A stretch of DNA of 64,000 nucleotides, from NCBI RefSeq assembly GCF_963677155.1, contig NZ_OY781884.1:4708501-4772500 (forward strand), in the 5' to 3' direction. The notes beneath the pieces were generated by a model. That model worked only from the letters and a program-made list of their open reading frames with translations. It was not told where the DNA came from and did no database searches. How positions within the stretch are numbered: the first letter of the stretch is position 1; each line of letters starts with the position of its first letter. This document shows, piece by piece, positions 29,343 to 44,119 of the stretch. Made by a program: the position numbers and the translations under genes. Source of the DNA: an uncultured Draconibacterium sp. (lineage in GTDB: Bacteria > Bacteroidota > Bacteroidia > Bacteroidales > Prolixibacteraceae).

Positions 29343-29370
29343 AATCTGACATCAGGCTTTCTGAATTTTT

Positions 29371-29403: not shown

Positions 29404-29412
29404 CGAAAAATC

Positions 29413-30417
29413 ATGAGTAAAATATACAATTGGGCAGTATTAGGATGTGGTAATATTGCCAATAAGTTTGTTAACGATTTGAAATTGTTGCCAAATGCCA
29501 AACTGTATGCGGCAGCATCGCGCGATTTAGGCCGGGCACAGGGCTTTGCCAACGAATTGGGATTTGAAAAAGCCTATGGCAATTACAACGATATGGTTGA
29601 GGATCCAAACGTTGATGTAGTTTATATCGCAACACCGCATTCCCATCATTTTGAACATACCATGTTGTGCCTTAAGCATAAAAAGGCAGTGCTTTGTGAG
29701 AAGGCATTTGCCATGAATCAGCACGAAGTGGCACAAATGATAAAATGTGCAAAAGACAACAATACTTTTCTGATGGAAGCTTTCTGGACCATGTTTCAAC
29801 CCAGTTTCCAAAAAGCGCTTGAGATTATTAATTCCGGAGAATTGGGTAAATTGAAAATGGTTCGGTCGGATTTTGCCTTTAATGCCGAGTTTAATGTAGA
29901 CAAACGCCTCTATAACGTAAAATTGGGTGGCGGCTCACTTTTGGATATTGGTATTTACCCGGTATTTGCAGCGTTGGCATCTTTGGGTGTCCCTGATCTC
30001 ATTAAGTCTTCTGCCGATTTTAGTTCCACCGGAAGTGAGGAAAGTATTCAAATGATTTTCAAGTACAAAGGAGGAGAGATGGCCAGTCTGTCCTCAAGCT
30101 TTGCGGTACATTCGCCGGTTCAAACCGAATTTTGCTGCGAAAATGGATATATCGTTTTGCATCCGCGCTGGTTTACGCCAACCGATTTGACCGTTTGTAA
30201 AGGTGACGAAGAGCGACAGTTAATTCCAAACGAGACGAAAGAAGGGGCAGGGTACCAGTACGAAGCGAAACACGTTATGGAGTGTTTGGATGCAGGGTTG
30301 ATCGAAAGTCCGAAAATGACCTGGAAAATGAGCGAATATTTAATCCAAACGCTTGACCGTATTCGTATAGATGCAGGAATTTTCTTCCCGGAGCATGATA
30401 AGAAATTATTTTTCTGA
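29413..30417 (+). CDS. Gfo/Idh/MocA-family oxidoreductase (cytosolic)
   Basis: The 334-residue protein has an N-terminal Rossmann fold (AVLGCGNIANKFVNDL, residues 9-24), the strand VDVVYIATPHSHH, the EKxx motif CEKAFAMNQ with its catalytic Lys, and a C-terminal substrate domain (GGGSLLDIGIYPVFAAL). It resembles dihydrodiol dehydrogenase/NAD(P)-dependent sugar dehydrogenases. No signal peptide, unlike the two homologs at 56-61 kb. Substrate unknown. Preceded by a palindromic operator-like site. Confidence 0.9.
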   Translation: MSKIYNWAVLGCGNIANKFVNDLKLLPNAKLYAAASRDLGRAQGFANELGFEKAYGNYNDMVEDPNVDVVYIATPHSHHFEHTMLCLKHKKAVLCEKAFAMNQHEVAQMIKCAKDNNTFLMEAFWTMFQPSFQKALEIINSGELGKLKMVRSDFAFNAEFNVDKRLYNVKLGGGSLLDIGIYPVFAALASLGVPDLIKSSADFSSTGSEESIQMIFKYKGGEMASLSSSFAVHSPVQTEFCCENGYIVLHPRWFTPTDLTVCKGDEERQLIPNETKEGAGYQYEAKHVMECLDAGLIESPKMTWKMSEYLIQTLDRIRIDAGIFFPEHDKKLFF

Positions 30418-30574
30418 AGTCTGTAGATTTGGAATTTGATAACTTTTATATTCTACATATTTTTTAATTGATGACTTAATTTTGCACCGATTGGAATATT
30501 GTGTTTAATGAATTTTACACCATTCTTTGTAAATTGCAAACTGCTCTTTGCAATTGAAAATCAGGAGGATTTAT

Positions 30575-30604
30575 ATGTTAATTTTTGGTAAACAATCATA
30601 TTAA
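30575..30604 (+). other. Possible nine-codon leader ORF with strong Shine-Dalgarno
   Basis: AGGAGG at 30563-30568 is followed six bases later by an ATG opening a nine-residue frame, MLIFGKQSY, ending in TAA, 56 bp before rex. Strong Shine-Dalgarno sites are rare in this phylum, so the arrangement is odd. It overlaps the possible Rex site. It may be chance. Confidence 0.25.
30576..30594. promoter_or_regulatory. Possible Rex-type operator upstream of rex
   Basis: TGTTAA-N7-TAAACA is an imperfect dyad resembling the TTGTTAA/TTAACAA half-sites of Rex operators. It lies 67 bp before the rex start and could give autoregulation. One half-site position mismatches. Confidence 0.3.
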
Positions 30605-30660
30605 TATAATAAAGAAAAAATTCTCTAATTTGAGTTGTTATTATATTTGAAGTGAACTAA

Positions 30661-31326
30661 ATGACAAAAGCTACAAAAGTGATTGCAGTAAGAAAAAAGA
30701 GAAAACAAGTTCCGGAACCAACATTAAGAAGGTTACCGGGTTATTTATTTTTTCTTGAAAAAGTTCGTGAGAAAGGGGTGATGAATATTTCAGCACCTTC
30801 GATTGGTAAGGAACTAAAGTGCGATCCTACACAAGTAGTAAAAGATTTGGCATTTACCGGAGTTAAAGGAAAACCCAGGGTAGGGTATAATACTTACGAA
30901 TTGTGTCATGCACTGGAAAACTTTTTAGGATTCAATCATGTAAACGAAGCGTTTTTGGTTGGAGCCGGTAATTTAGGTTCTGCTTTAATGGCTTATCAGG
31001 AACACCAAACGCTGGGGTTGAAAGTAATAGCAGCATTTGATGTAGATGAAAAGAAAATTGGACAACACATTGGAAATACTCCGGTTTTGGAGTATAACAA
31101 GTTGTTCCATTTGTCGAACCGCTTGGATGTTGAGATTGCCATTTTAACCACGCCAAATAATGTGGCCCAGGAAGTAGCTGAAGATTTGGTGAACTGTGGT
31201 GTAAACGCGATCTGGAATTTTACCCATGAAATATTGGATCTGCCGGATCACATTATTATTCAGAATACATCGATGAGTTCTTTTGCTGCTGTTTTGTTGC
31301 AGCGGTTGAACGATTCAAAGAAATAA
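30661..31326 (+). CDS. rex: Redox-sensing transcriptional repressor Rex
   Basis: The 221-residue protein has an N-terminal winged helix (PEPTLRRLPGYLFFLEKV, then ISAPSIGKELKCDPTQVVKDLAFTG) and a Rossmann NADH-binding domain (FLVGAGNLGSALMAY, residues about 100-114; FDVDEKKIGQ). Rex represses fermentation and respiration genes and releases DNA when the NADH/NAD ratio rises. Length is normal. No target operon is visible next to it; a possible Rex-like dyad upstream would suggest autoregulation. Confidence 0.95.
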   Translation: MTKATKVIAVRKKRKQVPEPTLRRLPGYLFFLEKVREKGVMNISAPSIGKELKCDPTQVVKDLAFTGVKGKPRVGYNTYELCHALENFLGFNHVNEAFLVGAGNLGSALMAYQEHQTLGLKVIAAFDVDEKKIGQHIGNTPVLEYNKLFHLSNRLDVEIAILTTPNNVAQEVAEDLVNCGVNAIWNFTHEILDLPDHIIIQNTSMSSFAAVLLQRLNDSKK

Positions 31327-31343
31327 CTCAAAAAAACAAAAAC

Positions 31344-31544
31344 ATGAAAAAGTTTAATTTATTCTTTAGATGTGCATCTGATAAAATAAAGAAAAAATTC
31401 TTTAAAAGTGAGAAAAGTGACATTAATCATGCGTGTGCTGAGCTGCAAAATATGGAGGATGAAAGTAAATTGACAGTTGAAGAAAAGGAGCGCGAAGAAT
31501 ATGCTCAGAATTATAATATAACAACTCGCTGGCAAACCATCTAA
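31344..31544 (+). CDS. Small charged hypothetical protein downstream of rex
   Basis: The 66-residue frame begins 17 bp after rex. The N-terminus is basic (MKKFNLFFRCASDKIKKKFF) and the rest rich in Glu/Lys/Asn with no membrane segment. Position and A-rich translation-initiation region (AAAAAAACAAAAACATG) make it a plausible rex-cotranscribed gene. No family recognised. Confidence 0.4.
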   Translation: MKKFNLFFRCASDKIKKKFFKSEKSDINHACAELQNMEDESKLTVEEKEREEYAQNYNITTRWQTI

Positions 31545-31686
31545 TTGCTCTTTTCTTAACGCTTTAAATAGAATCAATATTCATTGATTAATCATTGCGG
31601 GAGTCTAAAATTACCCGGATTATACACTTGCGTATTATCTCAAACGCGCATCGCTATTAAGACCTGTGCCGTATTAGTTTAATTGT

Positions 31687-31694
31687 TACATTTG
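31687..31694 (+). promoter_or_regulatory. -7 box TACATTTG before the sugar isomerase-like gene
   Basis: A perfect TAnnTTTG match 28 bp upstream of the start codon; the -33 element is weak. It gives an expected leader of about 20-25 nt. Confidence 0.55.
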
Positions 31695-31722
31695 TTTTTC
31701 TGAAACAACTAAATTTAATACG

Positions 31723-32559
31723 ATGAACAAATCAGCGCTTTCTTTTCTATTATTATTGTTATTTACCTTTTCCCTAACTGCGCAGGAGGTAAGACGTCCT
31801 GAACCTCAACCGGCACCGGAAACCAATGAATCGTTTAAGCTTGGAATGGCCGGTTATACTTTTGTGCATTTCGATTTGCAAACCACATTGGAAACCATGA
31901 AACGGTGCGATGTGCATTACCTTTGCATAAAGGATTTTCATTTACCTGTTAACAGCACCTCGAAAGAAATTGAGGCATTTTATGAAAAATGCGCAGAATA
32001 CGGTGTTACCGGTTATGCGGTAGGACCACTTTATATGAAAAGTAAAGAGGATATCGATAAGTATTTTGATTATGCGATACGAGTGGGAGTTAACACGATT
32101 GTTGGTGTGCCCGATTATGAACTGCTTCCATACGTAAATGAGAAAGTAAAGGAAACAGGTTTATATTTTGCGATTCATTTGCATGGACCGGATATCGATG
32201 TGTATCCGGATGCTGAAGACGTGTGGGAACATACAAAAGATCTTGATTCGCGAATTGGCATGTGTCTCGATATTGGTCACGATACCAGAAATGGAAAAGA
32301 TCCGGTGGCCGATTTAAAAAAATACCACAGCAGGGTTTTCGATATTCATTTGAAAGATGTTACCGGTCGAACTAAACAAGGTTATTCCGTTGAAGTTGGG
32401 AGAGGTATAATTGATTTTCCTGCTTTTGTAAATATGCTTCGCGAAGTGAATTATACCGGAGCTGTAAGTTTGGAGCATGAGCGAAATATGGATGATCCGT
32501 TTATGGGAATTGCTGAATCAATAGGCTATTTCAGAGCAATGATTGTCGCAACAAGATAG
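31723..32559 (+). CDS. Secreted sugar phosphate isomerase/epimerase-like TIM barrel
   Basis: The 278-residue product has a Sec signal (residues 1-20, ending LTAQ) and a xylose-isomerase-like (AP endonuclease 2 type) barrel: KLGMAGYTFVHFDL, CIKDFHLP, FAIHLHGPD, RIGMCLDIGHDTRNG, VFDIHLKDVT and GAVSLEHERN. The recurring His, Asp and Glu residues at strand ends form the expected divalent metal site. Such exported members are common in Bacteroidota carbohydrate clusters and often act with Gfo/Idh/MocA oxidoreductases. Substrate unknown. Confidence 0.87.
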   Translation: MNKSALSFLLLLLFTFSLTAQEVRRPEPQPAPETNESFKLGMAGYTFVHFDLQTTLETMKRCDVHYLCIKDFHLPVNSTSKEIEAFYEKCAEYGVTGYAVGPLYMKSKEDIDKYFDYAIRVGVNTIVGVPDYELLPYVNEKVKETGLYFAIHLHGPDIDVYPDAEDVWEHTKDLDSRIGMCLDIGHDTRNGKDPVADLKKYHSRVFDIHLKDVTGRTKQGYSVEVGRGIIDFPAFVNMLREVNYTGAVSLEHERNMDDPFMGIAESIGYFRAMIVATR

Positions 32560-32574
32560 ATTTTAACAGGATAT

Positions 32575-32613
32575 AAAAAAAGAGTTCTCTATGGTTGGGG
32601 AACTCTTTTTTTT
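32575..32613. terminator. Terminator after the sugar isomerase-like gene
   Basis: A run of A, then AGAGTTC (32581-32587) pairing with GAACTCT (32600-32606), then eight T. The A-run makes it potentially bidirectional. Confidence 0.88.
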
Positions 32614-32692
32614 GTGTTTATCCCGAATCATGGTCAACATAAATAAATCAGTATTCTCTTTTGAATTGCGACTTTTATCGAAGCTAATTTTA

Positions 32693-32700
32693 TATTTTTG
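32693..32700 (+). promoter_or_regulatory. -7 box TATTTTTG just before the TonB-like gene
   Basis: TATTTTTG ends six bases before the ATG at 32707, the same geometry as at bamD. No clear -33 element at standard spacing. If active, the mRNA would begin at or very near the start codon. Confidence 0.45.
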
Positions 32701-32706
32701 CTGCAA

Positions 32707-33444
32707 ATGAAGATCGGAGAGTTATACAGGAGAAATGTTTATGGAGTAATTGGTACGCTGGTATTCCACATTCTGTTATTCTCTGCGTTTTTGCTGGCCG
32801 ATGTAGATATAAAAGGCAACGTAAAAGAAGAAGCTATTTTAGTTGAATTCCCTGAAGAAATGCTCGAACCTGAGATTACGGAGCCCGAAACACAAGAAGA
32901 AAATACGGATCAGCCAAATAGAGAACAAAATACTAATACCCGAACAAACATTGCTTCAAATCGATCGGCAACAGAAAATACCACTACTTCAACCGACGAG
33001 TTTTTCGACGATGACTATTTGAAAGAGGTAGAGGCAGCCAAACAACTTGTTTCAAATGTCAACAAAAATTTGGCTAAAGAAACAGTTGATTTGAGTGATA
33101 TAAAAATGCCTGTTGAAACCACTGAAGGCATGGATCGTGACTCGATTAAGAATGTAATTTATGCAGGTGAAAGTAATATTGTTTACTACTTGGAAAATCG
33201 TTATCATATCAGTTTGCCCGTACCTGTTTATCTAAGTCAGGGCGGAGGGACAGTTATTGTCGATATTGTTGTTAATCGCCAGGGGAGAGTGGTTGATGCC
33301 GAACCTCGCGACGATAATTCTATTCGCGATAAGCAATTATTTGCCTATGCAAAAGAAGCTGCTAGCCGTACCGTTTTTAACAGCGATAACTCAGCACCGG
33401 CCCGCCAAAAAGGAACAATTCAATATACTTTCGTAGCACAGTAA
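32707..33444 (+). CDS. TonB-like energy-transducer-type protein
   Basis: The 245-residue protein has one N-terminal membrane helix (VYGVIGTLVFHILLFSAFLL, about residues 11-30), an acidic Glu/Pro/Asn/Thr-rich linker (residues about 45-105), and a C-terminal TonB-like alpha/beta fold (GGGTVIVDIVVNRQGRVVDAE, then KQLFAYAKEAASRTVFN and GTIQYTFV). TonB transmits proton-motive force to outer-membrane receptors; no ExbB/ExbD genes adjoin it, so its receptor is unknown. The ATG at 32707 was chosen over an upstream TTG. The linker is acidic rather than the usual Lys/Pro-rich form. Confidence 0.8.
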   Translation: MKIGELYRRNVYGVIGTLVFHILLFSAFLLADVDIKGNVKEEAILVEFPEEMLEPEITEPETQEENTDQPNREQNTNTRTNIASNRSATENTTTSTDEFFDDDYLKEVEAAKQLVSNVNKNLAKETVDLSDIKMPVETTEGMDRDSIKNVIYAGESNIVYYLENRYHISLPVPVYLSQGGGTVIVDIVVNRQGRVVDAEPRDDNSIRDKQLFAYAKEAASRTVFNSDNSAPARQKGTIQYTFVAQ

Positions 33445-33493
33445 ATAAAATGTTAATTTGTAGAAAGGTTTAACACCATTTAACAAATTTTTC

Positions 33494-33613
33494 TTGCCGA
33501 ATTTGCGATATGCCTTTATCTTTGCGGTACGTTTATTTTCATAAGTTTAGGTTTAGTTAGGTTAGTTAGTTTAATGAGAAAAGGATGGGTTGTTGAACCT
33601 GTCCTTTTTGTTT
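33494..33613 (+). ncRNA. Candidate small transcript (promoter plus terminator, no gene)
   Basis: A perfect -7 box TATCTTTG (33517-33524), with TTG at 33494-33496 near -33, is followed by a TTAG-rich stretch (33546-33572). Then comes a 13-bp hairpin (33579-33591 with 33596-33608, two G-U pairs, loop GTTG) and TTTTTGTTTT. Predicted RNA about 85 nt. A 14-codon frame (MRKGWVVEPVLFVL) runs through the hairpin, so a leader peptide is an alternative. It could also be a terminator for the upstream gene. Confidence 0.45.
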
Positions 33614-33767
33614 TATAGGCCGTTTGCACATTAAATCCCAAAGTTTACTTCTTGTTTTAATTTAATTTTTATCTTTATGAAATCTTGTAACGGCTTGTTA
33701 ATAAGCCAAATTGCACGTTTGCTAACAATGCGGTTACAAAGTTGTGTATAGAATAATTTTAAATAGA

Positions 33768-33795
33768 GGGTTACCTTTTGACCAATAATCGAATA
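33768..33795 (+). promoter_or_regulatory. ECF-type promoter before the sigma gene
   Basis: GGGTTACC (33768-33775), 15 bp, GAATA (33791-33795). The block AGAGGGTTACCTTTT is identical to that before the peptide array at 38875-38889, with the same spacing to GAATA. It suggests the sigma factor activates its own gene. Confidence 0.65.
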
Positions 33796-33807
33796 ATATA
33801 TTAGAAG

Positions 33808-34395
33808 ATGATAAATTACACGGATGCGCAAATCCTGAAAGGAATCTTAAGGCACGATAATTTAATTTTGCAGTACATATACAAACAGTACTACTATAAA
33901 GTAAATTATTTCATTAAGAAAAACCAAGGAAGTGAGGACGATGCCAGTGATATTTTTCAGGAAGCTATTATCGTAATTTACAGAAAATTAAAGGAAAACG
34001 ATTTAATTTTCGAAAAGAGTTCTTTTCAAGGTTATTTATTCTCAGTATGTCGATTTTTGTGGTTAAAGCAACTGGAGAAACGACGGATTGAGAAAGAAAA
34101 GCTAAACGATTCATTACCGTTCCAGGAAGACCTTTATGACGACAACTTGGTAGAATTGGTAGATAAAAACCAAAAATATGGATTGTATCAAAAGCATTTC
34201 AAAACTTTGAGTACAGATTGTCAGAAGCTATTGCAGATGTTTTTTGAAAAAGTCCCGCTTAAAGAAATTGCAAAAATTATGGGATACAAATCTGAAAAAT
34301 ACGCTAAAACAAGAAAGTATAAATGTAAAGAACTGTTGATAAAGCGCATTAAGCAAGATACAGAATTTAAAAAGATACTTGAAGATGACACCTAA
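33808..34395 (+). CDS. ECF-type sigma-70 family RNA polymerase sigma factor
   Basis: The 195-residue protein has sigma region 2 (YIYKQYYYKVNYFIKKNQGSEDDASDIFQEAIIVIYRKL, with the DIFQEA helix that contacts the core enzyme, and FQGYLFSVCRFLWLKQL) and region 4 (LSTDCQKLLQMFFEKVPLKEIAKIMGYKSEKYAKTRKYKCKELL, a helix-turn-helix that reads the -35). Regions 1 and 3 are absent, as in ECF factors. Its stop lies inside the start of the next gene (11-bp overlap), so sigma and the putative anti-sigma are probably translationally coupled. A GGGTTACC-N15-GAATA promoter precedes it. Confidence 0.92.
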   Translation: MINYTDAQILKGILRHDNLILQYIYKQYYYKVNYFIKKNQGSEDDASDIFQEAIIVIYRKLKENDLIFEKSSFQGYLFSVCRFLWLKQLEKRRIEKEKLNDSLPFQEDLYDDNLVELVDKNQKYGLYQKHFKTLSTDCQKLLQMFFEKVPLKEIAKIMGYKSEKYAKTRKYKCKELLIKRIKQDTEFKKILEDDT

Positions 34396-35887
34396 AGCAG
34401 AATTATTTGGACGCATTGAAGATTACTGTTTAGATCTTTTAAACAAACACGAGAGAGAAGAATTTGAAAAAGAATTAGAGTTAAACCAGGAGTTAAGAGA
34501 AGAAGTTGAACTTCACAAAAATATCCAGTCTGCCGTTTTGGAAATGGATGTTCTTGATCTTAAAGGGAAACTCGAAGAAATTCAAACAAACAGTGCACGA
34601 AATGGCAAGTTAAGCGGATCTTTCGAGCTGTTAGACGACTTCAACGAATTTGAAGAAGCCACATCAGAGTTAACACCCGAAGAACTTATTGAAAGTTTCG
34701 AATCGCTCCCCAAAGTTCATGTATATCAGCATGAACGTACCAGCAACGAAAACATACACCATTATTACAAGGAACAAAATGGTTCAGAGCAAGTCGTTAT
34801 GGAAGATGACCTGAACGGTTTTGATATGGAAGGTCTGGAAGGACTTGAAGAGGCTGTTTTGGAAACAGACATTTTGAACTTGCGCGAAACATTGCAGCAG
34901 GTTGCAAAATCGGTTGAACCACAATATTCAGTTGAAGATATTGACGCATATCTTGACGGAGAAATGGGCGCCGATATCTTGGCAGAATTTGAAGGTGAGT
35001 TGAACCAAAATGAACTATTACAATCAGAAGTTAATCTGCACAAAGAGCTTGAAATGGCTGTTGCGGAGAACGATGTAATGGGGTTGAGAAGTGAGTTAAG
35101 AAATATCATGGAGTCTGAAACATCGTGGAATGTTAGTGAGCAAGCCATTGAAGACTTTATTGATGGAGTACTGGAGGAAAGCTTGTTAGAAGAATTCAGT
35201 GCCGAATTGAAAGAAAATACAGATCTGATGGCAGAAGTGGCACTTCGCGAAAATATAAATTCTGCTGTATCTGAAACGGATATAATGGGTTTACGTCAGA
35301 AACTGAAAGACGCAAGAGACGAATCCGAGAAGAAAGAGGTAAAATCGATAATAATGCCACGTATCGAAATTGGGACCACGAAATTCTGGCGTAGTAGTGT
35401 AGCCGTTATTTTAGTCGTGGTTGGTTTATTTGGCGTAATGCGAATGAATACCAATACGCTTGACAATTCATACGATAAATACTTTGAGTCGACAACATGG
35501 GCATCTGAACGTTCGGTTGACAGTAATGTGGGTATATTACAACAAGCTCAAATGTATTTTCAACAGAATGAGTTTCAGAAAACTATCGATTTGTTGAATA
35601 ATGCAACGGTTAAATCTGATGAGCAATTTGTTCCGCAGTTTTATAAAGGATTGAGTTATCAGAATTTAAATAAATACCCGAAAGCAGTTACCGAGTACAC
35701 TAAAGTTATTGATCACGGAAATAATATGTTTATCGAGGAAGCCGAGTGGTATAAAGCACTTTGTTATCTGAAAATGAATAAAAGGGCAGAGGCGAAGAAA
35801 GAATTGCTTGCAGTTATTGATCGTAAAGGTCATTACGAAAAAGATGCTAAGGCAATTTTAAGAAAGCTCAGGTACTCTTTCAAATAA
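34385..35887 (+). CDS. Membrane repeat protein with TPR tail, candidate anti-sigma factor
   Basis: The 500-residue protein overlaps the sigma gene. Its N-terminal cytoplasmic part repeats a module resembling the helical zinc-finger-type anti-sigma domain without its Cys/His ligands: an opening like IEDYCLDLLNKHEREEFE or IDAYLDGEMGADILAEFE, then a recurrent AVxExDxxxLxxxL element at residues 50-63, 157-170, 225-238 and 294-307. A single membrane helix follows (about 336-352), then a periplasmic TPR-like domain (residues about 383-495: AQMYFQQNEFQKTIDLL, YKGLSYQNLNKYPKAVTEYTKVI). It is highly acidic. Anti-sigma role is inferred from layout and overlap. It ends before a terminator shared with the convergent CHAT gene. 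Confidence 0.72.
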   Translation: MTPKAELFGRIEDYCLDLLNKHEREEFEKELELNQELREEVELHKNIQSAVLEMDVLDLKGKLEEIQTNSARNGKLSGSFELLDDFNEFEEATSELTPEELIESFESLPKVHVYQHERTSNENIHHYYKEQNGSEQVVMEDDLNGFDMEGLEGLEEAVLETDILNLRETLQQVAKSVEPQYSVEDIDAYLDGEMGADILAEFEGELNQNELLQSEVNLHKELEMAVAENDVMGLRSELRNIMESETSWNVSEQAIEDFIDGVLEESLLEEFSAELKENTDLMAEVALRENINSAVSETDIMGLRQKLKDARDESEKKEVKSIIMPRIEIGTTKFWRSSVAVILVVVGLFGVMRMNTNTLDNSYDKYFESTTWASERSVDSNVGILQQAQMYFQQNEFQKTIDLLNNATVKSDEQFVPQFYKGLSYQNLNKYPKAVTEYTKVIDHGNNMFIEEAEWYKALCYLKMNKRAEAKKELLAVIDRKGHYEKDAKAILRKLRYSFK

Positions 35888-35933
35888 TCGAAGAATCGTC
35901 AATAGATTAATTCGAAAACATATACACATTCAA

Positions 35934-38819
35934 TTAAGCCTGTCGGTTACGACGGGCTTTTTTTATGCGAATTCCCTGATCGATTGAAAACGCAATAATC
36001 AGAAGAATAAGAATTGCAAAAAAGTAAAGATCGTAACTGGTATAAACCGGAGAATTATCGCCAATACATTTGAAGCTCATCCAATAATGCGGGTGTGCAA
36101 GTCTTGAATTCGATTCTTCAAGGTATTTTAGTTTTGCAAGCCGAAGTGCTTCATCTTTTGTTTTCCCTGCTTTCAGGTACTTATAAAAAGAGGTCATTAT
36201 TTTTGTGCCGGCCGCATCTTCAACTTCCCAAAGCGACATTACAACCGATGGACATCCGGCATATAAGAATCCTCTGGCCAAACTCATTAGTCCTTCTCCC
36301 TTTTGAAGTTTGCCCACACCAGTGTTACATGCACTAAGTACAGTCATACTGGCATTTAAATCGAGATTGTAAATATCTGCTGTATTTAACCATCCATCAT
36401 TATTTAATGTTGTTGAGTCAAGCGATTGACTAAAAGCCAAGCGTGAGTAGGCCGGTAGTGAGTCGTTTATGTATGCGTGCATTGCCAGATGGAGAATGTC
36501 AAAATTACCACTTGCTTTCCTGAAATTTTGCTCAGTTGCTTCTTTACTTCTGAAAATTGTTGTGTTAACTGATTTTGCAATTTCGTCAACTTCTTTTTGC
36601 ACGCCCGGTAAAGGTGCAAGTTTATAGCTTGCGCCTGTCATTTTAAATTCCTCAGAATTGTATTCTGGAGCAAATGCCAGAGTATGGTTTCGCAGTTTGG
36701 GTTTTGAAGCTTTGTTCTTCAGAAAAATGTTTACAGAATTGGCATAATTAATATTTACATTCTTTATCAGGTAATTTAGTTTGTTGAACCGGATGGCCTG
36801 AGTTGTGTCAGGCAGCGTTTTTAATAATCCGTCGAATGAAATATAATTCAGCTTGCCATCTGGTATTATTGTCAGGTGTTTTTCGTTCAGATTTTGCTCG
36901 AAAGGAGCAAGCAATAGGTTGTAAAGTTTGTGTGATGAAACACAGTATTGTTTTGTATCTTCGTTGTGTGTAAACATATAATCGGTTGAAGCCATAAACC
37001 GAAAGGTTTCTTCTAATGCCTGGGTTTCAGTATTACTTAGTGTCTTTTTTTGAAATTCAATATTGTTGCTGGTAATAAAAAAGGTATACAGCGAAGTTAG
37101 GGTGTCACTGTCATTTTCAATTCTTTCTTTTGTTGGTTCAGCTAAAAAATATTCAACAATTGCTTCCTTGCTTTCAAGCCTATCTTGTATGTCATTTAAG
37201 CTGAGGGTAGAATTGGAGTATTTTAACTGATAGTAGTCGGGGTAACTTTCTTCCATATAACGATCCAGTTCATCTCTTTGTCGCGATGCGTTAAAAATCT
37301 TATCATTATATTCTTCCAACAACGAACTATCAGGTTCATTGTAGCTTAATTCCTCGTATTGTAATTCGGAATAGTTGGCGATGGTATTGTTTAATTTACG
37401 TTCCAGATCTAATAGGCTATCAGGGATCAAACTATTTTCCTGCGCCAGTTCATTGGCAATTTTATCAAATAACGCACTGCTTTTTAATTGCTCCGAATTG
37501 TTAAAGGCAATATCCATGAATTCCTGATCACCCGAGTAATTATAGGCAAGATAGGCTGTTTTAATAATTTTACTTATGGTTTGGTATTGCAGGTTCGACA
37601 GCTGAATCTTACTTTCATCGTTCGAAATCTCTTTTCGCGCCTGTTGGATGAGATTACTGGTATTGTTATAGCAGTTTAATGCATAGTCGAGGTTTTCTCT
37701 GAAATCAATGCCTCTATTTTCATTATCAAGGAGGGCAATTTCAAGATACACATCACCAATTGCTTTAATTATTACAATACAATCAAGCAATGAACGTACT
37801 TTTTGATAATTAATTTCTAATCTTTCTGGATTATTTTGATCAATTTTCAAAGCTGTTAATCCTTTTTTATAGGAATTAATTGCATTCAAAAGGTTCTGTT
37901 TTTTTTCTGTTTTAAACCGACTGATTCCCTGAGTATTTATTGTACGATCTCTGTAGATATTTCCTTCTGTTTGATAATAATTAAAAACTTCAATACCTAT
38001 TTTTTTATTAAGATCCTGGAGAATTTGATAAGCTTCAGACAGCTCTTTTATTGCCTTTTCGAATTGGTTGATCTGAGAAAGAAAATCAGCATAGCTCATA
38101 TAGGCATACGCTAAATCCAAACTTGTGCCGTAATATTTCATAGATAACTTAATTGCATGCTGATAATGGTAATCAGCTTTTTTATTATCATTTAAGTTAT
38201 AGTGACTTCCTCCCAGTATATTATCAAAATAAATTTGATTAATTGTATCAGCAGAATCGTAACATTTTTCGGCAACATCAATAACGGCCTGGTAGTTTTC
38301 TGTTATAAACTCAACCTCCGCAATAGCGTAATAGGCGTCTATAATTTTATACTCGTCTGCAGGTATTTGTGTTTTATAAGCTGTAAGTGCTTGATTGAAA
38401 TATTTTGAGGCATTGTTGTAATCCAATTTGGCTCGATATACATTTCCAATATTAATATACAGATTGCCCAAAAGTCTATAGTTTGTGGGAGTACGTAAAA
38501 AAATATTCTTTTCAGACAGCATGTAATTCTCCAACGCTTTTTCATTTTCTCCTAGATTCTTATAGCTAATCCCGATAGAATAATATGCTGAAGCAAGATA
38601 ATAATTTTCTTCTCCATAAATTTTTTTTCTGTATTCTAAATAGCGTTTAAATGCGTCTAATGCTTCAGTATGTCTTCCTTTATAGCTTAATGAAGCTCCT
38701 TGTTGTCTTATATTGTTGGATATCAGTATTAATGAGTCCTTTTTTTCTTCTGATCCAAGCAAGCTCTGCGCTAGGAATAATGTATAAAAAGTGAAACATA
38801 AACTTTTGAAAATTGTCAT
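35934..38819 (-). CDS. Secreted or membrane-anchored TPR-CHAT caspase-like protease
   Basis: The 961-residue protein has a Sec signal (residues 1-22), then tetratricopeptide repeats (about 40-470; EALDAFKRYLEYRKKIYG, ASAYYSIGISYKNLGENEKALENY) and a C-terminal CHAT domain (about 645-922), with the caspase-type dyad His781 (ILHLAMHAY) and Cys831 (VLSACNTGVG). Typical segments LAPLPGVQKEVDEI, GEGLMSLARGFLYAGCPSVVMSLW and HPHYWMSF are present. A last membrane helix (about 930-946) with a basic tail would leave the protease on the periplasmic side. It converges on the sigma/anti-sigma pair and diverges from the peptide array, which offers both as possible partners. Housekeeping-type promoter elements lie upstream. 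Substrate unknown. Confidence 0.9.
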   Translation of the reverse strand: MTIFKSLCFTFYTLFLAQSLLGSEEKKDSLILISNNIRQQGASLSYKGRHTEALDAFKRYLEYRKKIYGEENYYLASAYYSIGISYKNLGENEKALENYMLSEKNIFLRTPTNYRLLGNLYINIGNVYRAKLDYNNASKYFNQALTAYKTQIPADEYKIIDAYYAIAEVEFITENYQAVIDVAEKCYDSADTINQIYFDNILGGSHYNLNDNKKADYHYQHAIKLSMKYYGTSLDLAYAYMSYADFLSQINQFEKAIKELSEAYQILQDLNKKIGIEVFNYYQTEGNIYRDRTINTQGISRFKTEKKQNLLNAINSYKKGLTALKIDQNNPERLEINYQKVRSLLDCIVIIKAIGDVYLEIALLDNENRGIDFRENLDYALNCYNNTSNLIQQARKEISNDESKIQLSNLQYQTISKIIKTAYLAYNYSGDQEFMDIAFNNSEQLKSSALFDKIANELAQENSLIPDSLLDLERKLNNTIANYSELQYEELSYNEPDSSLLEEYNDKIFNASRQRDELDRYMEESYPDYYQLKYSNSTLSLNDIQDRLESKEAIVEYFLAEPTKERIENDSDTLTSLYTFFITSNNIEFQKKTLSNTETQALEETFRFMASTDYMFTHNEDTKQYCVSSHKLYNLLLAPFEQNLNEKHLTIIPDGKLNYISFDGLLKTLPDTTQAIRFNKLNYLIKNVNINYANSVNIFLKNKASKPKLRNHTLAFAPEYNSEEFKMTGASYKLAPLPGVQKEVDEIAKSVNTTIFRSKEATEQNFRKASGNFDILHLAMHAYINDSLPAYSRLAFSQSLDSTTLNNDGWLNTADIYNLDLNASMTVLSACNTGVGKLQKGEGLMSLARGFLYAGCPSVVMSLWEVEDAAGTKIMTSFYKYLKAGKTKDEALRLAKLKYLEESNSRLAHPHYWMSFKCIGDNSPVYTSYDLYFFAILILLIIAFSIDQGIRIKKARRNRQA
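35936..35964 (+). terminator. Terminator of the sigma/anti-sigma operon, inside the CHAT gene end
   Basis: AAGCCTGTCG (35936-35945) pairs with CGACGGGCTT (35950-35959), loop GTTA, followed by T residues. It overlaps the last codons of the convergent CHAT gene. Confidence 0.85.
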
Positions 38820-38840
38820 CTGATGTTACGATTTATACCT

Positions 38841-38872
38841 CCAAAATAGAGCTTTTTTTAATTTTTTTCAAA
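38841..38872 (-). promoter_or_regulatory. Housekeeping-type promoter of the CHAT gene
   Basis: On the minus strand, TTTG (complement 38869-38872), 20 bp, then TATTTTGG (complement 38841-38848), a near match to -33/-7 elements. It lies 22 bp before the start codon and only 5 bp from the divergent ECF-type promoter. Confidence 0.5.
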
Positions 38873-38877
38873 AAAGA

Positions 38878-38905
38878 GGGTTACCTTTTTCTACTTATCA
38901 GAATA
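38878..38905 (+). promoter_or_regulatory. ECF-type promoter of the peptide array
   Basis: GGGTTACC (38878-38885), 15 bp, GAATA (38901-38905). It is the same element, with the same spacing, as before the sigma gene; the 15-nt block AGAGGGTTACCTTTT is identical. The first peptide ATG is 48 bp further on. Confidence 0.65.
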
Positions 38906-38953
38906 TATTAGTGAATGTGTGTTTAAAAGTTTAACGAATTAATTTATTATACG

Positions 38954-39100
38954 ATGAAAAGAGTACAGTTTGAATCAACAGAAAATACTTTCGAAGTTAA
39001 TGGGTTTGAAGTAATCAATGAAAATGCAATGAGCGAAGTTCGTGGTGGTGGAACTCCAAGATCAAGAGACAAAGATATTTTTGATTTTGAAGCTGAGTAA
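38954..39100 (+). CDS. Small VRGGG peptide, copy 1
   Basis: A 48-residue acidic peptide starting MKRVQFESTENTFEV. It ends with EVRGGGTPRSRDKDIFDFE plus two residues. The part up to MSEVRGGG looks like a double-glycine leader as in Bacteroidota natural-product precursors, with a 16-17-residue tail after GG. No cysteine, signal peptide or membrane segment. First gene after the ECF-type promoter. No maturation enzyme of the radical-SAM or C39-transporter type is in the window. The tail (net negative) is almost identical in copy 2. Function unknown; possible precursor or protease substrate. Confidence 0.7.
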   Translation: MKRVQFESTENTFEVNGFEVINENAMSEVRGGGTPRSRDKDIFDFEAE

Positions 39101-39133
39101 AATTTAGAGTATTTAAATTTTTAAGACTATGGC

Positions 39134-39271
39134 ATGAAAGTTATCGCTGATTTTCATACAGAGGATGAACGAAATTTTGAGGTGTTGTCTGAGTACGCAA
39201 TGAATGATGTTCGTGGTGGTGGAACACCGAGATCAAGAGACAAAGATATTTTTGATTTTGAAGCAGAATGA
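39134..39271 (+). CDS. Small VRGGG peptide, copy 2
   Basis: A 45-residue paralog of copy 1, beginning MKVIADFHTEDERNFEV and ending in the same VRGGGTPRSRDKDIFDFE block plus AE. Over the last 60 bases (39209-39268) the DNA differs from copy 1 at only about four sites, whereas the N-terminal halves are only distantly similar (shared NxFEV and AMxxVR positions). That contrast shows the C-terminal block is under selection or gene conversion. It lies 33 bp after copy 1, probably on the same transcript. Confidence 0.7.
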   Translation: MKVIADFHTEDERNFEVLSEYAMNDVRGGGTPRSRDKDIFDFEAE

Positions 39272-39287
39272 GTAAAACAATAGCTCA

Positions 39288-39456
39288 ATGAAAGTTATAA
39301 CTATATAATCAAAACACAACAATTTAGAAAAACCTCGGTTTTGATGTTCTTTCTCTAGAAGAACTAAATGAAGTGCGTGGTGGGGGAACACCAAAATCAA
39401 GAGATAAAGATATTTTCGATTTTGAAGAAGAAGAGCCTATATACAGAACCAATTGA
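39288..39456 (+). pseudogene. Small VRGGG peptide, copy 3, disrupted
   Basis: The frame encoding LNEVRGGGTPKSRDKDIFDF, followed by an acidic extension and IYRTN, runs 39328-39456 but has no in-frame ATG, GTG or TTG before the motif. An ATG at 39288 opens MKVITI, matching copy 2's MKVIA, then meets a TAA; the body then continues one base out of frame, with KNLGFDVLSLEELNEV restoring the pattern. At least two lesions separate start and core. Either a dead copy or one read from an unusual start. Confidence 0.6.
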
Positions 39457-39469
39457 GTTGTTAGTACAG

Positions 39470-39502
39470 GGGTTAAAACAAGGACGGTTTTAACCCTTTT
39501 TT
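39470..39502 (+). terminator. Terminator of the peptide array
   Basis: GGGTTAAAAC (39470-39479) pairs perfectly with GTTTTAACCC (39487-39496), followed by six T. It closes the array 14 bp after the last stop. Confidence 0.92.
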
Positions 39503-39508
39503 ATGTCC

Positions 39509-40645
39509 TTATTTTCCCTTGCCCTCAAATAACCGATAATTATTATACTTACATTTTAGCGGTCCATTAAATAAATCAATTCGTTGCGACGGTTTTAATC
39601 CGACAAATTTTAAGCTCTCGAACGCTGAGCTAAGTATCCATGCACTATTCCCTGCGTATTGATGTTTTAAACGCTCTCCAATCATCGAATAAAGACCATC
39701 TAGGTCATTTTCTCTTAACCTTTCACCATAAGGTGGGTTTGTTAATATTGTTGCATTGTTTAAATTGATATTCAAATCTTTGAAGTCAGTGCATGCAAAC
39801 TGTATTTTGTTAAACACCAGAGCACGTCGTGCATTGGTTTGCGCATTTAGCAAATTACTTCCTGATATATCCGATGCATAAATTTTATGCCTGAATTCTC
39901 TTCTTTCAACCGGTTCCGTAACTTTTTCCCAAAGCAACGGATCAAAATCGTTCCAAAGTTGAAAGGCAAATTCTTTTCTGAATTTGGCAGCAGGAATGTT
40001 TTGTGCTATCATAGCCGCTTCAATAGGTAAAGTGCCTGAGCCGCACATAGGATCCATAAAATCCGAATTTCCGAGCCAACCTGAAATATAAATCATTCCG
40101 GCAGCAAGCACTTCGTTTAGAGGTGCCTCACCTTGTTTTACCCGATAACCTCTTTTATGTAATGATTCTCCTGAACTGTCAATCGACAATGTACAGTTAT
40201 CCTGGAATATATGAACGTTTATAATAATATCAGGATTATCTGTGTCAACACTGGGACGTTTTCCGAAATTCTCGCGAAAATAATCGGCAATGGCATCTTT
40301 TACTTTTAGCGAGGCAAACATCGAGTTTCTGAAATCACGGGAGTTAACCACAACGCTATTAATCACAAAATTCTGATCAACAGTAAAATAGTTTTGCCAC
40401 TTTATTTTTTTGCATTTTAAATAAAACTGATCGACATTTTTAAAATTAAAATGTTCAATTTCTTTTAGAATACGTAATGCTGCCCGAAGATGATAATTTG
40501 ATCTGTAGATTAACTCAAGACCACCGTCATAAAATACGGCACGTTTTCCGCGTCGTACGTTTTTGCCGCCAATGCGCTTCACTTCTTTAGCCAAAACATC
40601 TTCCAACCCGGAAAAGGTTTTTGCAATTAATTTATACTCTTTCAA
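39509..40645 (-). CDS. THUMP-domain class I RNA methyltransferase (RlmL/RlmKL-type)
   Basis: The 378-residue enzyme resembles the N-terminal (RlmL) half of RlmKL, which methylates a guanine N2 in 23S rRNA. It starts with the ferredoxin-like/THUMP region (KTFSGLEDVLAKEVKRIGG; SLKVKDAIADYFRENFGKRP; LSIDSSGESLHKRGYR), then the methyltransferase domain: MDPMCGSGTLPIEAAMIA (SAM-binding loop), YASDISGSNLLNAQTNAR, and catalytic TNPPYGERL. No RlmK domain is fused. Follows cysE on the same strand after 19 bp. Confidence 0.92.
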   Translation of the reverse strand: MKEYKLIAKTFSGLEDVLAKEVKRIGGKNVRRGKRAVFYDGGLELIYRSNYHLRAALRILKEIEHFNFKNVDQFYLKCKKIKWQNYFTVDQNFVINSVVVNSRDFRNSMFASLKVKDAIADYFRENFGKRPSVDTDNPDIIINVHIFQDNCTLSIDSSGESLHKRGYRVKQGEAPLNEVLAAGMIYISGWLGNSDFMDPMCGSGTLPIEAAMIAQNIPAAKFRKEFAFQLWNDFDPLLWEKVTEPVERREFRHKIYASDISGSNLLNAQTNARRALVFNKIQFACTDFKDLNINLNNATILTNPPYGERLRENDLDGLYSMIGERLKHQYAGNSAWILSSAFESLKFVGLKPSQRIDLFNGPLKCKYNNYRLFEGKGK

Positions 40646-40664
40646 TGATTTGATTTTTTGTTTT

Positions 40665-41591
40665 TTAAATACCTGCTCCGTCCATAAAAGGAATATCTCG
40701 CGGGCGTTTTTGCACTACACGAGAATTGGCAGGAAGATCGTTGGTTACCCACACATTGCCCCCGATAACAGAATTTTCGCCAACAGTTACGCGGCCCAAA
40801 ATGGTTGCGCCAGCATATATAACTACGTTGTTTTCTAAAATGGGGTGACGAGGAATCCCTTTAATCGGGTTGCCATCATCGTCGAGTGGAAAACTTTTTG
40901 CGCCTAAGGTAACTCCCTGGTATATTTTTACATTATCGCCAATAATACATGTTGATCCTATAACTACTCCCGTACCATGGTCAATCGTAAAACTCTCACC
41001 AATTTGAGCGCGTGGATGGATATCTATTCCGGTTTCGCTGTGTGCCATCTCTGTAATAAAACGGGGGATAAGCGGAACGTCAAGTTGCTGAAGTTTGTGT
41101 GCAATCCGGTAATTTGTCATGGCCCGGATTCCAGGATAGCTAAAAATAACCTCGCCAAAGTTCTTTGCAGCCGGATCATTCAAAAAAGTAGCCTCAACAT
41201 CAGCAACTAATCTGCGCCTTATTTCCGGCAAAAATTCGATAAATGCGACTGCTTTTTCCTGTGCATCTGTGCGATGCTTTTCAACTCTTTGTTCCGACTC
41301 GTCGGTACACTCAAAACACAGTCCTGCCAAAATCTCTCGGGTAAGCATTTCAAGCAACTCATCAACATAAACTCCCATATAATGTGGAGTTATGGTGGTT
41401 TTCAAAGTAGTTGTTCCGAAATAGCCAGGGAATAGAATCTCGCGTACCAGATTAATAATTCGTTTCAATTGTTTATTTGATGGCAGAGGATCTCCCATCA
41501 TATGTTTATGACAAACTAATTTATACGATTCAGGGTTGCTCAGCTTGGTTACTGTTTCTAAAATTTTTTGGTCTATGGCATTATTTGTCAT
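40665..41591 (-). CDS. cysE: Serine O-acetyltransferase
   Basis: Makes O-acetylserine from serine and acetyl-CoA, the first step of cysteine synthesis. The 308-residue chain has the helical N-terminal domain and a left-handed beta-helix with hexapeptide repeats: GIDIHPRAQIGESFTIDHGTGVVIGSTCIIGDNVKIYQGVTLGAKSFP, with the catalytic His in IDHGTGVVIG and a second in IPRHPILENNVVI. It is longer than the enterobacterial enzyme by its N-terminus, as is usual in Bacteroidota. No cysteine synthase adjoins it. Probably co-transcribed with the downstream methyltransferase. Confidence 0.92.
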   Translation of the reverse strand: MTNNAIDQKILETVTKLSNPESYKLVCHKHMMGDPLPSNKQLKRIINLVREILFPGYFGTTTLKTTITPHYMGVYVDELLEMLTREILAGLCFECTDESEQRVEKHRTDAQEKAVAFIEFLPEIRRRLVADVEATFLNDPAAKNFGEVIFSYPGIRAMTNYRIAHKLQQLDVPLIPRFITEMAHSETGIDIHPRAQIGESFTIDHGTGVVIGSTCIIGDNVKIYQGVTLGAKSFPLDDDGNPIKGIPRHPILENNVVIYAGATILGRVTVGENSVIGGNVWVTNDLPANSRVVQKRPRDIPFMDGAGI

Positions 41592-41796
41592 ATCGTTGAA
41601 TTATATTACAAAACTAATTACAATCATTTAAGAATTGTAACATATAACGTATAAAAGAAGGTTCTTGTTGAAGGTTTTAATCTAAACTTGAGATGTCTTT
41701 AGTTGCAGTGTTTCTCCGTTCTTCGAAATTACCTTTTATTATATGGTAAAGGAAGTGGCAAATTTTCGGTTGATTCTGCTCTCGTTATGGCTTATC

Positions 41797-42402
41797 TTAG
41801 TCTTTTGCTTCAAAATTTTTTAGATCTTTTCTCCACTCGATGTAGCCCAATAAAGCCATAACGGTGTAAACGACAAATAAAATAACTGTTGCCCACAGTC
41901 CTTTATAGATATATAGCCCTGCTGAAAATCCGTCGATAAATATCCAAAGCAGCCAGTGTTCAATGTATTTTCTTGCAAGCATCCAGGTGGCAACAATGCT
42001 AAGTGCTGTTGTAACTGAATCCATATGCGGAACATCGGAATTGGTATAATTGCTTAAAATAAAAAGAAGTAGAGCATAAAGAGCAATTGAAACGACTGCC
42101 AGCTTAAGCCATAGTATTTTTCTTGTGCTTCTAACGCCAACCTTCTTCTCGTTTTGTTTTTTACCGCTTAGCCAAAAATACCAACCATAAATACTAATTA
42201 TTACATAATAAACCTGAAGTCCCATGTCGGCATATAACCGGGCATTAAAAAATACAACAACGTAAAGTGCTGAGGTTAATAATCCGGTAGGCCAAGTTAA
42301 AATGTGTTGTTTAATAGAAAAGAAAATGTAGGCTAAACCAAGAATGGCTCCCAGTATTTCAATATAATTACCTAAGAGCCATTCCAAAACTATATCAGTC
42401 AT
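41797..42402 (-). CDS. pnuC: Nicotinamide riboside transporter PnuC
   Basis: The 201-residue, multi-helix membrane protein matches PnuC: GAILGLAYIFFSIKQHILTWPTGLLTSALYVVVFF, LQVYYVIISIYGWYFWLSG (the GWYxW helix), and WLLWIFIDGFSAGLYIYKGLWATVILFVVYTVMALLGYIEWRK. It facilitates uptake of nicotinamide riboside (or, in some members, thiamine). The window shows no TPP riboswitch before it. It starts 5 bp after the CtpA-type protease gene, so both are likely one transcript. Confidence 0.93.
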   Translation of the reverse strand: MTDIVLEWLLGNYIEILGAILGLAYIFFSIKQHILTWPTGLLTSALYVVVFFNARLYADMGLQVYYVIISIYGWYFWLSGKKQNEKKVGVRSTRKILWLKLAVVSIALYALLLFILSNYTNSDVPHMDSVTTALSIVATWMLARKYIEHWLLWIFIDGFSAGLYIYKGLWATVILFVVYTVMALLGYIEWRKDLKNFEAKD

Positions 42403-42407
42403 AAAAT

Positions 42408-44042
42408 TTAATCAACTGTATCAACTGTAACTAAAAGCGCTGCATATTTGTCTTGATTATCAAAAACCTCAAGAGCTTTTAATATAGCATCGTCATCTTC
42501 GTTCAAAATTTTGTACATATCGTTTTTGGAGTATACATCGCGCGCAATTAAAGCTTTGAGTTCGCGCTTGAGGTCATCTTTAAGATAAGATAAACTTTCT
42601 TCGTCTCTCTCAATTCCTTCTTCGATACCTTTAGCAACTACCTGCTCAATATTCTCATCCGAGATTTCGAATTTTGCATTGAATTCTTCAAATTTTGGAT
42701 ATTGCTTCACAATGTCTTCACGATGAAGATCAACATAATCTAAAACAAAATTATAGGTAACACGCTTTCTTCTTAATTTATTGAAATAAGCATAATGCGA
42801 AGATGTGTCCAACGGAACAAAAATATCAGGCATTATACCACCGCCCCCATAAACATTGCGACCGCTAACCAGTGTTTTGTGTTTTAATTCATCATCAAAA
42901 TGAATACTGTCGGCACTAAACATCTCTCCATTACTAATTCGGTTGGCATAATCTTTACGATATTCGCTAATGCCATCTTCATAAGGCTTTTGTATGCATC
43001 TGCCACTTGGCGTGTAATAGTGAGCCGTTGTTAAGCGAATCATCGACCCGTCATTCAGGAAGAATGGTTTTTGTACCAATCCTTTTCCAAACGAGCGACG
43101 ACCAATTATAATACCACGATCCCAATCCTGAATAGCTCCCGAAACAATTTCACTTGCTGACGCTGACCCCTCGTTAACTAGAACAACAACTTTACCTTCT
43201 TCAAAAGAACCCTTTGCTGTAGCTTTATAGTCTCTTTTCGGATCGTTTGTTCCGTCGGTGTAAACAATCAATTGATCATCGGTTAAAAACTGGTCGGCTA
43301 ACTCAATGGCCGATTTCAGGTAGCCTCCACCGTTATTTCGCAAATCCAGAACAAGGTTTTGTACTCCTTCTTTTTTTAGCTCCGACATGGCCGATAAAAA
43401 TTCATCGGTAGTTGTTGCCGAGAATTTATTCAATTTTATATAACCGGTCGACTCATCCAGCATGTAAGAAGCATCCAGACTAAAAATTGGAATTTTATCT
43501 CTTTCAATTGTAAAATCAAGTGGCCTGGTTTCGCCTTTTCTGGCGATTGTTAAATCAACTTTAGTGCCTTTTTCCCCTCGTAATAAATCAAAAACATCTG
43601 AGTTTTTTAATCCTATTCCGGCAATGTTTTCGCCGTCAACCTCAATAATCCGGTCGCCTGCGCGCAGACCAACTTTCTCTGAAGGACCTTCGGCAATTAC
43701 TGTCGTCACCATCAAGGTGTCCTTATAAATGTTAAATGAAATACCAACCCCCTCGAAGTTTCCTTTAAGCGGCTCGTTCATTTTATCCACTTCTTCTTTC
43801 GAAATATAGGTTGAATGCGGATCAAGCTCTTCAAGCAAATGTACAATGGCTTTTTCTGTTAAGTCGCTAATATCTGATGAGTCGACATAATAACCATCAA
43901 CCAAGCGCAGTAAACGAGCAAATTTTACCTGGTTTTCCTGCACTTCGTTTTGTGCCTGCGTAGTGACAGGTCCTATCAGGAAGAAAGCTAAAAATATCCC
44001 TAATCCAATTGTTTTAATATGTTGAATTTTTGTTACAGCCAT
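42408..44042 (-). CDS. S41 carboxyl-terminal processing protease (CtpA-type)
   Basis: A periplasmic serine protease, 544 residues. It has a signal peptide (hydrophobic residues about 12-28, ending TTQAQ), a PDZ domain (FEGVGISFNIYKDTLMVTTVIAEGPSEKVGLRAGDRIIEVDGENI), and the S41 core: LVLDLRNNGGGYL, NEGSASASEIVSGAIQDW with catalytic Ser, and RRSFGKGLVQ with catalytic Lys. The C-terminal region is long and charged, as in many Bacteroidota members. Trims proteins at unstructured C-termini. Lies between guaA and pnuC on the same strand. Confidence 0.93.
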   Translation of the reverse strand: MAVTKIQHIKTIGLGIFLAFFLIGPVTTQAQNEVQENQVKFARLLRLVDGYYVDSSDISDLTEKAIVHLLEELDPHSTYISKEEVDKMNEPLKGNFEGVGISFNIYKDTLMVTTVIAEGPSEKVGLRAGDRIIEVDGENIAGIGLKNSDVFDLLRGEKGTKVDLTIARKGETRPLDFTIERDKIPIFSLDASYMLDESTGYIKLNKFSATTTDEFLSAMSELKKEGVQNLVLDLRNNGGGYLKSAIELADQFLTDDQLIVYTDGTNDPKRDYKATAKGSFEEGKVVVLVNEGSASASEIVSGAIQDWDRGIIIGRRSFGKGLVQKPFFLNDGSMIRLTTAHYYTPSGRCIQKPYEDGISEYRKDYANRISNGEMFSADSIHFDDELKHKTLVSGRNVYGGGGIMPDIFVPLDTSSHYAYFNKLRRKRVTYNFVLDYVDLHREDIVKQYPKFEEFNAKFEISDENIEQVVAKGIEEGIERDEESLSYLKDDLKRELKALIARDVYSKNDMYKILNEDDDAILKALEVFDNQDKYAALLVTVDTVD

Positions 44043-44119
44043 AATTCTAGTTTTTTATTTATAACGAAACGATTAAGCAATAAGTCTGCCAAAATCAATT
44101 TCGTTACACTCTGCAACAA

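Follow-up and report, generated by a model that had tools for sequence, protein, structure and literature searches.

A TPR-CHAT protease encoded with an ECF sigma factor, a membrane anti-sigma and double-glycine-type peptides in Draconibacterium: a locus that may be an undescribed signalling circuit resembling a CRISPR-linked one

In regulatory systems of the RseA/RsiW type, an autoregulated extracytoplasmic function (ECF) sigma factor is paired with a single-pass anti-sigma that has a periplasmic part, and this anti-sigma is cut by a site-1 protease and then by intramembrane cleavage. Double-glycine peptides matured by C39 peptidases, in turn, carry a leader with the consensus L-12, E-8, L/M-7, V-4 and a final GG. 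In type III-E CRISPR systems, Csx29, a protease that joins tetratricopeptide repeats (TPR) to a CHAT domain, cuts Csx30, the inhibitor of CASP-sigma; the CASP-sigma sites lie in its own locus, and alanine scanning of Csx30 found no essential cleavage residue (PMC10028731). Here we analyse a locus of an uncultured Draconibacterium sp. (placed in Bacteroidota, Marinilabiliales, Prolixibacteraceae by taxonomy) where a TPR-CHAT gene lies beside genes for an ECF-type sigma factor, a membrane anti-sigma and short peptides, and which may be an undescribed signalling circuit resembling the CRISPR-linked one. The genome is a single contig of 5.27 Mb (NZ_OY781884.1), and the window, the whole stretch of 64,000 nucleotides that was analysed, covers 4.71-4.77 Mb of it.

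The positions and gene calls of an earlier reading of the window (the original prediction) were re-checked and upheld. The sigma gene is followed by an overlapping anti-sigma-like gene, the TPR-CHAT gene is convergent to the pair, and the short peptide genes are divergent from CHAT. As in the type III-E CASP module (PMC10028731), a TPR-CHAT protease is encoded with an ECF sigma and a sigma inhibitor, and candidate sigma sites lie within the locus; however, the protease here has export signals, unlike Csx29, the anti-sigma has a transmembrane segment (TM), unlike Csx30, and peptides stand where RNA is the partner in type III-E. The original prediction had placed the locus in a CRISPR-free setting, and no CRISPR-like repeat array was found at 29000-45000, the rest of the genome not being searched, while no cas gene was recognised by eye among the ORFs listed, where no Cas7-11 profile search was made. 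Because no CRISPR array was found nearby, and because of the export signals, the membrane anti-sigma and the peptides, we do not regard the locus as a member of type III-E and propose a mechanistic likeness instead. Our reading, towards which the evidence below leans on balance, is that CHAT would be an Arg/Lys-specific protease that cuts the anti-sigma, and possibly the peptides too, to free sigma, in a CRISPR-free circuit of regulated proteolysis that would be the membrane-based equivalent of Csx29/Csx30/CASP-sigma.

The TPR-CHAT protein (961 aa, 35934..38819, minus strand) comprises an N-terminal signal-like segment, TPR, a CHAT domain at residues 629-921 and a C-terminal TM. It matches PF12770 (E 3e-58) and TPR_12 (E 8e-22) and is the sole PF12770 match in this genome; its best matches in named genomes are found in Draconibacterium (68-81% identity) and Maribellus (53-54%). 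The predicted catalytic dyad, His781 (codon 36477-36479, minus strand) and Cys831 (36327..36329, minus strand), had been called intact in the original prediction, and is invariant in 95/95 aligned rows, which include 17 second loci of the same genomes, and in 78/78 rows without these; the same holds for Val866 and Asp868 of the LWxVxD stretch (95/95 and 78/78). All our evidence is sequence, and the counts given here and below span related genomes, so that kinship inflates them. A hydrophobic N-terminus together with a C-terminal TM was observed in 70/75 CHAT homologs; the five outside this pattern all keep the C-terminal TM, and some of them, at least, seem to have been called too short. These features suggest that CHAT is exported, as the earlier reading had stated, and lies on the periplasmic side. 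Of the CHAT segments measured, the TPR shows the lowest conservation, with an identity of 0.652 against 0.855 for the CHAT domain (13 Draconibacterium-type sequences; rlmL was unscored in this comparison, with 0 rows). A sequence search of solved structures gave 10 matches, all to the TPR part, and a structure model built from eight sequences (mean pLDDT 58, CHAT domain mostly <40) was too poor for use.

The original prediction opposed a linked module to independent occurrence of its genes in relatives, and asked for their co-occurrence within 10 kb. CHAT homologs (E 1e-10) were found in 106/140 family genomes and sigma homologs (E 1e-20) in 111/140: 103 genomes have both, three have CHAT alone, eight have sigma alone and 26 have neither (Fisher p 4e-18, uncorrected for kinship). 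The independent occurrence that would have refuted the prediction was not observed. Contig ends that cut off the other gene account for at least two of the 11 discordant genomes (L168, L175); three more have contig ends near the gene that was found (L170, L171, L174), and in four CHAT is missing altogether and the anti-sigma is truncated. The two genes lie on one contig in 89 of the 103 genomes, with start-to-start distances of at most 5,438 bp (in G019 and G028, where CHAT is split, the distance was taken from the fragment that shares a contig with sigma), and on different contigs in the other 14. The linkage is retained in L090-L093, where no flanking gene of the window matches. At the level of the order, CHAT was found in 104/247 genomes (E 1e-40), and CHAT has both a sigma and an anti-sigma homolog nearby in 15 of 20 loci fetched from among the higher-scoring ones; at the level of the phylum, the anti-sigma C-terminal profile matched in 54/247 genomes (E 1e-12), and 13 of 20 fetched anti-sigma loci contain a CHAT-domain ORF. 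These order- and phylum-level loci show that the sigma/anti-sigma/CHAT triad spans the phylum, with GG peptides in part of it.

In eight order-level loci (L105, L107, L109, L114, L115, L117, L119, L120) an exported-looking protein of ~400 aa was seen beside CHAT, at the place of the GG peptide. A lipoprotein-like ORF of 187-219 aa adjoins CHAT in four loci from another order of the same class (L210, L213, L214, L215); those of L210, L213 and L214 had no Pfam match at E 0.01.

The sigma gene (33808..34395, plus strand, 195 aa) matches TIGR02937 (E 7e-14) and PF04542 (E 2e-5), each above its cut-off, and its product is accordingly ECF-type; it overlaps the anti-sigma gene (34385..35887, plus strand, 500 aa) by 11 nt, which agrees with the overlapping sigma and membrane repeat protein genes of the original prediction. 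Profile searches, alignment and hydropathy give the anti-sigma the following layout: three ASD-like cytosolic repeats (by eye), one TM at about residues 334-352, a periplasmic linker and TPR, the latter matched by the C-terminus, while the N-terminus has a weak match to the anti-sigma model NF052375 (E 9e-6, far below its cut-off). The protein would hold sigma through its N-terminal part; no second anti-sigma homolog was found in this genome at E 0.001. Like RseA and RsiW, it is a predicted single-pass anti-sigma with a periplasmic part, beside an ECF sigma with candidate autoregulation; unlike in those systems, where the first protease is of the DegS or PrsW type, a CHAT protein with TPR is proposed to make the first cut. 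A structure model of the anti-sigma (eight sequences given) reached a pLDDT of 44, too poor for use.

The linker contains an Arg, mostly followed by Ser, 19-26 residues after the TM in 38/38 full-length family anti-sigmas (46 loci were taken, eight without a full-length sequence; L074, L084 and L086, where the pattern took an earlier Arg, were read by eye). In the Draconibacterium protein this is Arg376-Ser377 (codons 35510..35515, plus strand), the candidate cleavage site in the juxtamembrane linker. In the alignment, where some genomes appear twice, R occupies its column in 48/49 rows and S in 44/49, in a linker that is otherwise variable; a deep 15-row alignment has R in at least 90% of its column, with the Arg kept in most order-level proteins, and a clear linker Arg was read by eye in 10/13 phylum-level anti-sigmas beside CHAT. 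This near-invariant Arg differs from the situation in Csx30, for which alanine scanning found no essential cleavage residue (PMC10028731). A natural loss points in the same direction. In genus g8 no PF12770 match was found in 4/4 genomes (one 77% complete), and the gene after sigma encodes the ASD-type cytosolic part only (two 154-aa ORFs, two frame translations); CHAT and the periplasmic part of the anti-sigma are lost together, in keeping with a periplasmic part whose purpose is to serve CHAT. Absence of the linker Arg was also considered as a marker of CHAT loss and dropped: G458 (L216) lacks both, but in G576 (L220), of the same genus, CHAT is present while the Arg is again missing.

A single promoter element for the sigma gene and the peptide genes had been claimed earlier, and part of this claim stood. 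The element GGGTTACCTTTT-N11-GAATA lies upstream of the sigma gene (33768..33795, plus strand) and, in identical form, upstream of the peptide genes (38878..38905, plus strand). Its 15-mer AGAGGGTTACCTTTT occurs exactly twice in the 5.27-Mb genome, both times at the locus, in the sigma and the peptide promoter; when up to two mismatches are allowed, it has 21 genome matches and the reversed control 20, so that the 15-mer stands out in its exact form only. The pattern GGGTTACC-N13-19-GAATA gave three genome matches, two of them at the locus, and one for the control, and GGGTTACCTTTT-N9-13-GAATA was found in 78/140 family genomes against 0/140 for the reversed control. The element is present 5' of both sigma and peptide genes in many, though not all, orthologous loci, and weaker forms were recognised by eye 5' of peptide genes in the order-level loci L104, L108, L110 and L113 and 5' of sigma genes in L114 and L120. 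In L072, L076 and L080 (genera g2 and g15) an element-bearing peptide gene is followed by the anti-sigma gene. The part of the claim that ties the element to this sigma is an assignment by position only; the sigma would be the factor that recognises it.

The predicted tandem array proved to be two genes and a remnant, the third copy being frameshifted. Peptide gene 1 (38954..39100, plus strand) encodes 48 aa, with a leader ending in VRGG and the core GTPRSRDKDIFDFEAE; peptide gene 2 (39134..39271, plus strand) encodes 45 aa, with a different leader and an identical core; the third (39340..39456, plus strand; repeat family D1) is out of frame with its only nearby ATG. This third-class copy, broken here at 39340-39456, is carried unbroken by L003-L014, the 12 closest relatives listed. 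In alignment and listings the leader is of the double-glycine type and agrees with the GG leader consensus, and the cores are short, mostly 10-20 aa, two traits that the peptides have in common with C39 double-glycine peptides such as the ComC-type pheromones. Unlike these, they have a nearly fixed Arg or Lys before GG and no C39 peptidase near, CHAT being linked instead. The residue before GG is R/K in 74/76 CHAT-linked ORFs, although the search patterns left that position free; of the two without it, one is probably a spurious ORF and the other is the second peptide of L116. For comparison, 20 loci around chosen C39 matches of the same family were searched with the same stricter pattern: 34 matches were obtained, of which eight are ribosomal protein uS12 (with R), and with these set aside R/K precedes GG in 0/26. 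About 18 of the 26 look precursor-like by eye; a narrower filter gave 25 matches, 14 of them precursor-like, and a looser pattern had nine R in 40 matches.

These figures bear on a rival explanation, in which the peptides are ordinary double-glycine peptides, bacteriocin-like or signals, that a C39 transporter exports and trims, while CHAT acts on the anti-sigma only. The fit of the leader to the C39 consensus speaks for it, as do a weak Bacteriocin_IIc match (E 0.033, below cut-off) and the C39 peptidases found in 125/140 family genomes, including one in this genome. That one, however, is the only C39 peptidase of the genome and lies at 3.67 Mb, about 1 Mb from the locus at 4.74 Mb, where no C39 transporter is linked, and the contrast in R/K before GG (74/76 against 0/26) also speaks against it; we consider this explanation rather unlikely. 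The idea that CHAT trims the leader since C39 is missing was dropped as a test, given the same 125/140.

The peptide cores behave differently from their leaders. Between paralogs of one genome, core identity is 0.967 and leader identity 0.482 (37 pairs in 15 genomes, 23 with identical cores), while between genomes best-leader partners have 0.764 in the core and 0.663 in the leader (271 comparisons, six with identical cores). Such homogeneity within a genome is the pattern expected for a short ligand that fits a genome-specific partner; gene conversion could contribute to it. One peptide listing pattern is incomplete; among the copies that it passes over are the first ones of L052 and L053. Core homogeneity is left unexplained by a second rival, an envelope-stress or secretion-sensing module in which TPR-CHAT senses an exported cargo, of which the peptide is a local variant. 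This reading draws on three scanned proteins of ~400 aa between CHAT and sigma (L105, L117, L120), which have a T9SS tail and SdrD_B/CarboxypepD_reg-like domains, and on the small lipoprotein-like ORF that adjoins CHAT in L213 and L214; we regard it as doubtful, though with a certain weight. Coevolution of core and TPR was also examined: partial correlations looked strong against the CHAT domain and were dropped after controls, because control genes score alike and the signal is inseparable from species kinship, so no specific core-TPR coevolution is claimed.

Two duplications were seen among the peptide loci. The core occurs twice in tandem in precursors beside CHAT in L082 (9383), L112 (9861-10112) and L116 (5298-5549), and in three genomes (L068, L078, L079) the peptide and anti-sigma unit is itself tandemly duplicated, with the same peptide and anti-sigma match in each copy.

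Taking into consideration (i) the gene set and its linkage, (ii) the common promoter element, (iii) the invariant dyad, (iv) the linker Arg, (v) the R/K before GG and (vi) the core homogeneity, all of which are observed, we propose the following sequence of events, where topology, sigma binding, cleavage, promoter recognition, and peptide export and sensing are predicted. The cytosolic repeats of the membrane anti-sigma would hold the ECF sigma, while the periplasmic TPR-CHAT would be anchored by its C-terminal TM. Activated through its TPR domain, CHAT would cut the anti-sigma after the linker Arg (R376/S377), and further proteolysis would set sigma free to transcribe the peptide genes as well as its own operon or, depending on the genus, a peptide-anti-sigma unit. 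The peptides, whose basic-then-small signature V-R/K-G-G is akin to the linker, may be handled by CHAT, and the core would most likely feed back on the TPR as a genome-specific ligand, or else compete as a substrate. The original prediction had CHAT cleaving the anti-sigma or the peptides: the former is supported by the linker Arg, the topology, the g8 loss and the Csx30 precedent (PMC10028731), the latter by R/K before GG, while cleavage itself is deduced from these features. A bolder version, offered tentatively and with low confidence, is a peptide-pheromone circuit of Gram-negative Bacteroidota acting via sigma, in which CHAT would serve as maturase and receptor alike: it would cut the propeptide after R/K, its variable TPR would bind the genome-specific core, and it would then cut the anti-sigma at the linker Arg, with positive feedback; Csx29/Csx30/CASP-sigma would then be a cytosolic derivative of the phylum-wide triad.

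Several observations weigh against the proposed circuit. With regard to the promoter, the sigma gene has no recognisable element in L072, L076, L080, L083, L088, L104, L108, L110 and L113, and in other genomes the element sits 5' of unrelated genes. With regard to the linker, L220 has CHAT beside an anti-sigma that lacks the Arg, L223 has Lys at the site and in L226 the Arg is displaced; G033 (86% complete) keeps R-S, yet no CHAT was found in it; and the Arg was read by eye in 6/7 phylum loci without CHAT in the fetched stretch, although CHAT was found in all six of these genomes, in five of them elsewhere and in G584 immediately beyond the stretch. The g8 reduction was read from the gene after sigma, with no search for another full-length anti-sigma there. 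As to the peptides, their leaders resemble ordinary C39 leaders in a family rich in C39 peptidases, and 16/64 CHAT loci have no divergent GG peptide, against 48/64 that have one, so the divergent peptide cannot be kept as the fixed part of the module that it had been taken for; of the 16, four belong to genus g9 and the other 12 come from the order level (L059 and L089 were excluded from the 64, and L090 and L091, with a GG-type ORF on the CHAT strand, from the divergent count). Peptide-core distance, finally, tracks the TPR no more specifically than it tracks control genes: relative to sigma, rlmL (0.34) and serAT (0.29) come near the TPR values (0.31, 0.30, 0.49).

Some of these points would also suit a linkage that is historical only, with the linker Arg and the peptide R/K serving unrelated roles: the Arg is retained in some anti-sigmas without CHAT beside them, and across the family much of the surrounding gene order is conserved. 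But the linkage outlasts the flank matches (L090-L093) and reaches phylum level, and in g8 the absence of CHAT coincides with that of the anti-sigma periplasmic part, which together make a purely historical linkage improbable.

CHAT proteases also act in gasdermin defence. This role and the action of CHAT proteases in CRISPR type III-E (PMC10028731) raise the alternative of a caspase-like module for cell death or defence in which CHAT would be the executioner. No PADLOC defence family matched any of the three locus proteins at E 0.01, and CHAT is present in most family genomes, in a common gene order and with export signals, so that we hold an executioner role to be very improbable.

Returning to CHAT as a protease that frees sigma, full-text literature searches listed no description of this gene set, as the original prediction had supposed, and the papers listed for TPR-CHAT with a sigma factor all concern type III CRISPR by title. 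If the proposal is correct, the locus would provide a CRISPR-independent setting for the protease/anti-sigma/sigma logic of type III-E, and hence a testable origin for it; a caspase-like protease would join the known releasers of anti-sigma factors; and Bacteroidota would have a candidate peptide signalling circuit, of a type absent from the literature searched. Anti-sigma R376, the peptide R/K before GG and CHAT Cys831 are open to mutation, and the locus is found in named Draconibacterium genomes, where it is testable.

A look at a wider regulon took 40 stretches around promoter-like sites regarded as outside the locus, among the matches listed. Within these matches, the sites precede several genes, among them one for a conserved small protein, and the stretch L130 turned out to be another peptide-anti-sigma unit. 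The small protein has 73-77 aa, ends in KSLFHESQ or KTLFHESQ in most cases, and follows the element in eight genomes of one genus (L125, L126, L129, L132, L134, L135, L137, L144); it is a possible further target of sigma. In three relatives (L155, L156, L157) the element is followed by a conserved ~120-aa protein that carries an HYYGMPNG motif.

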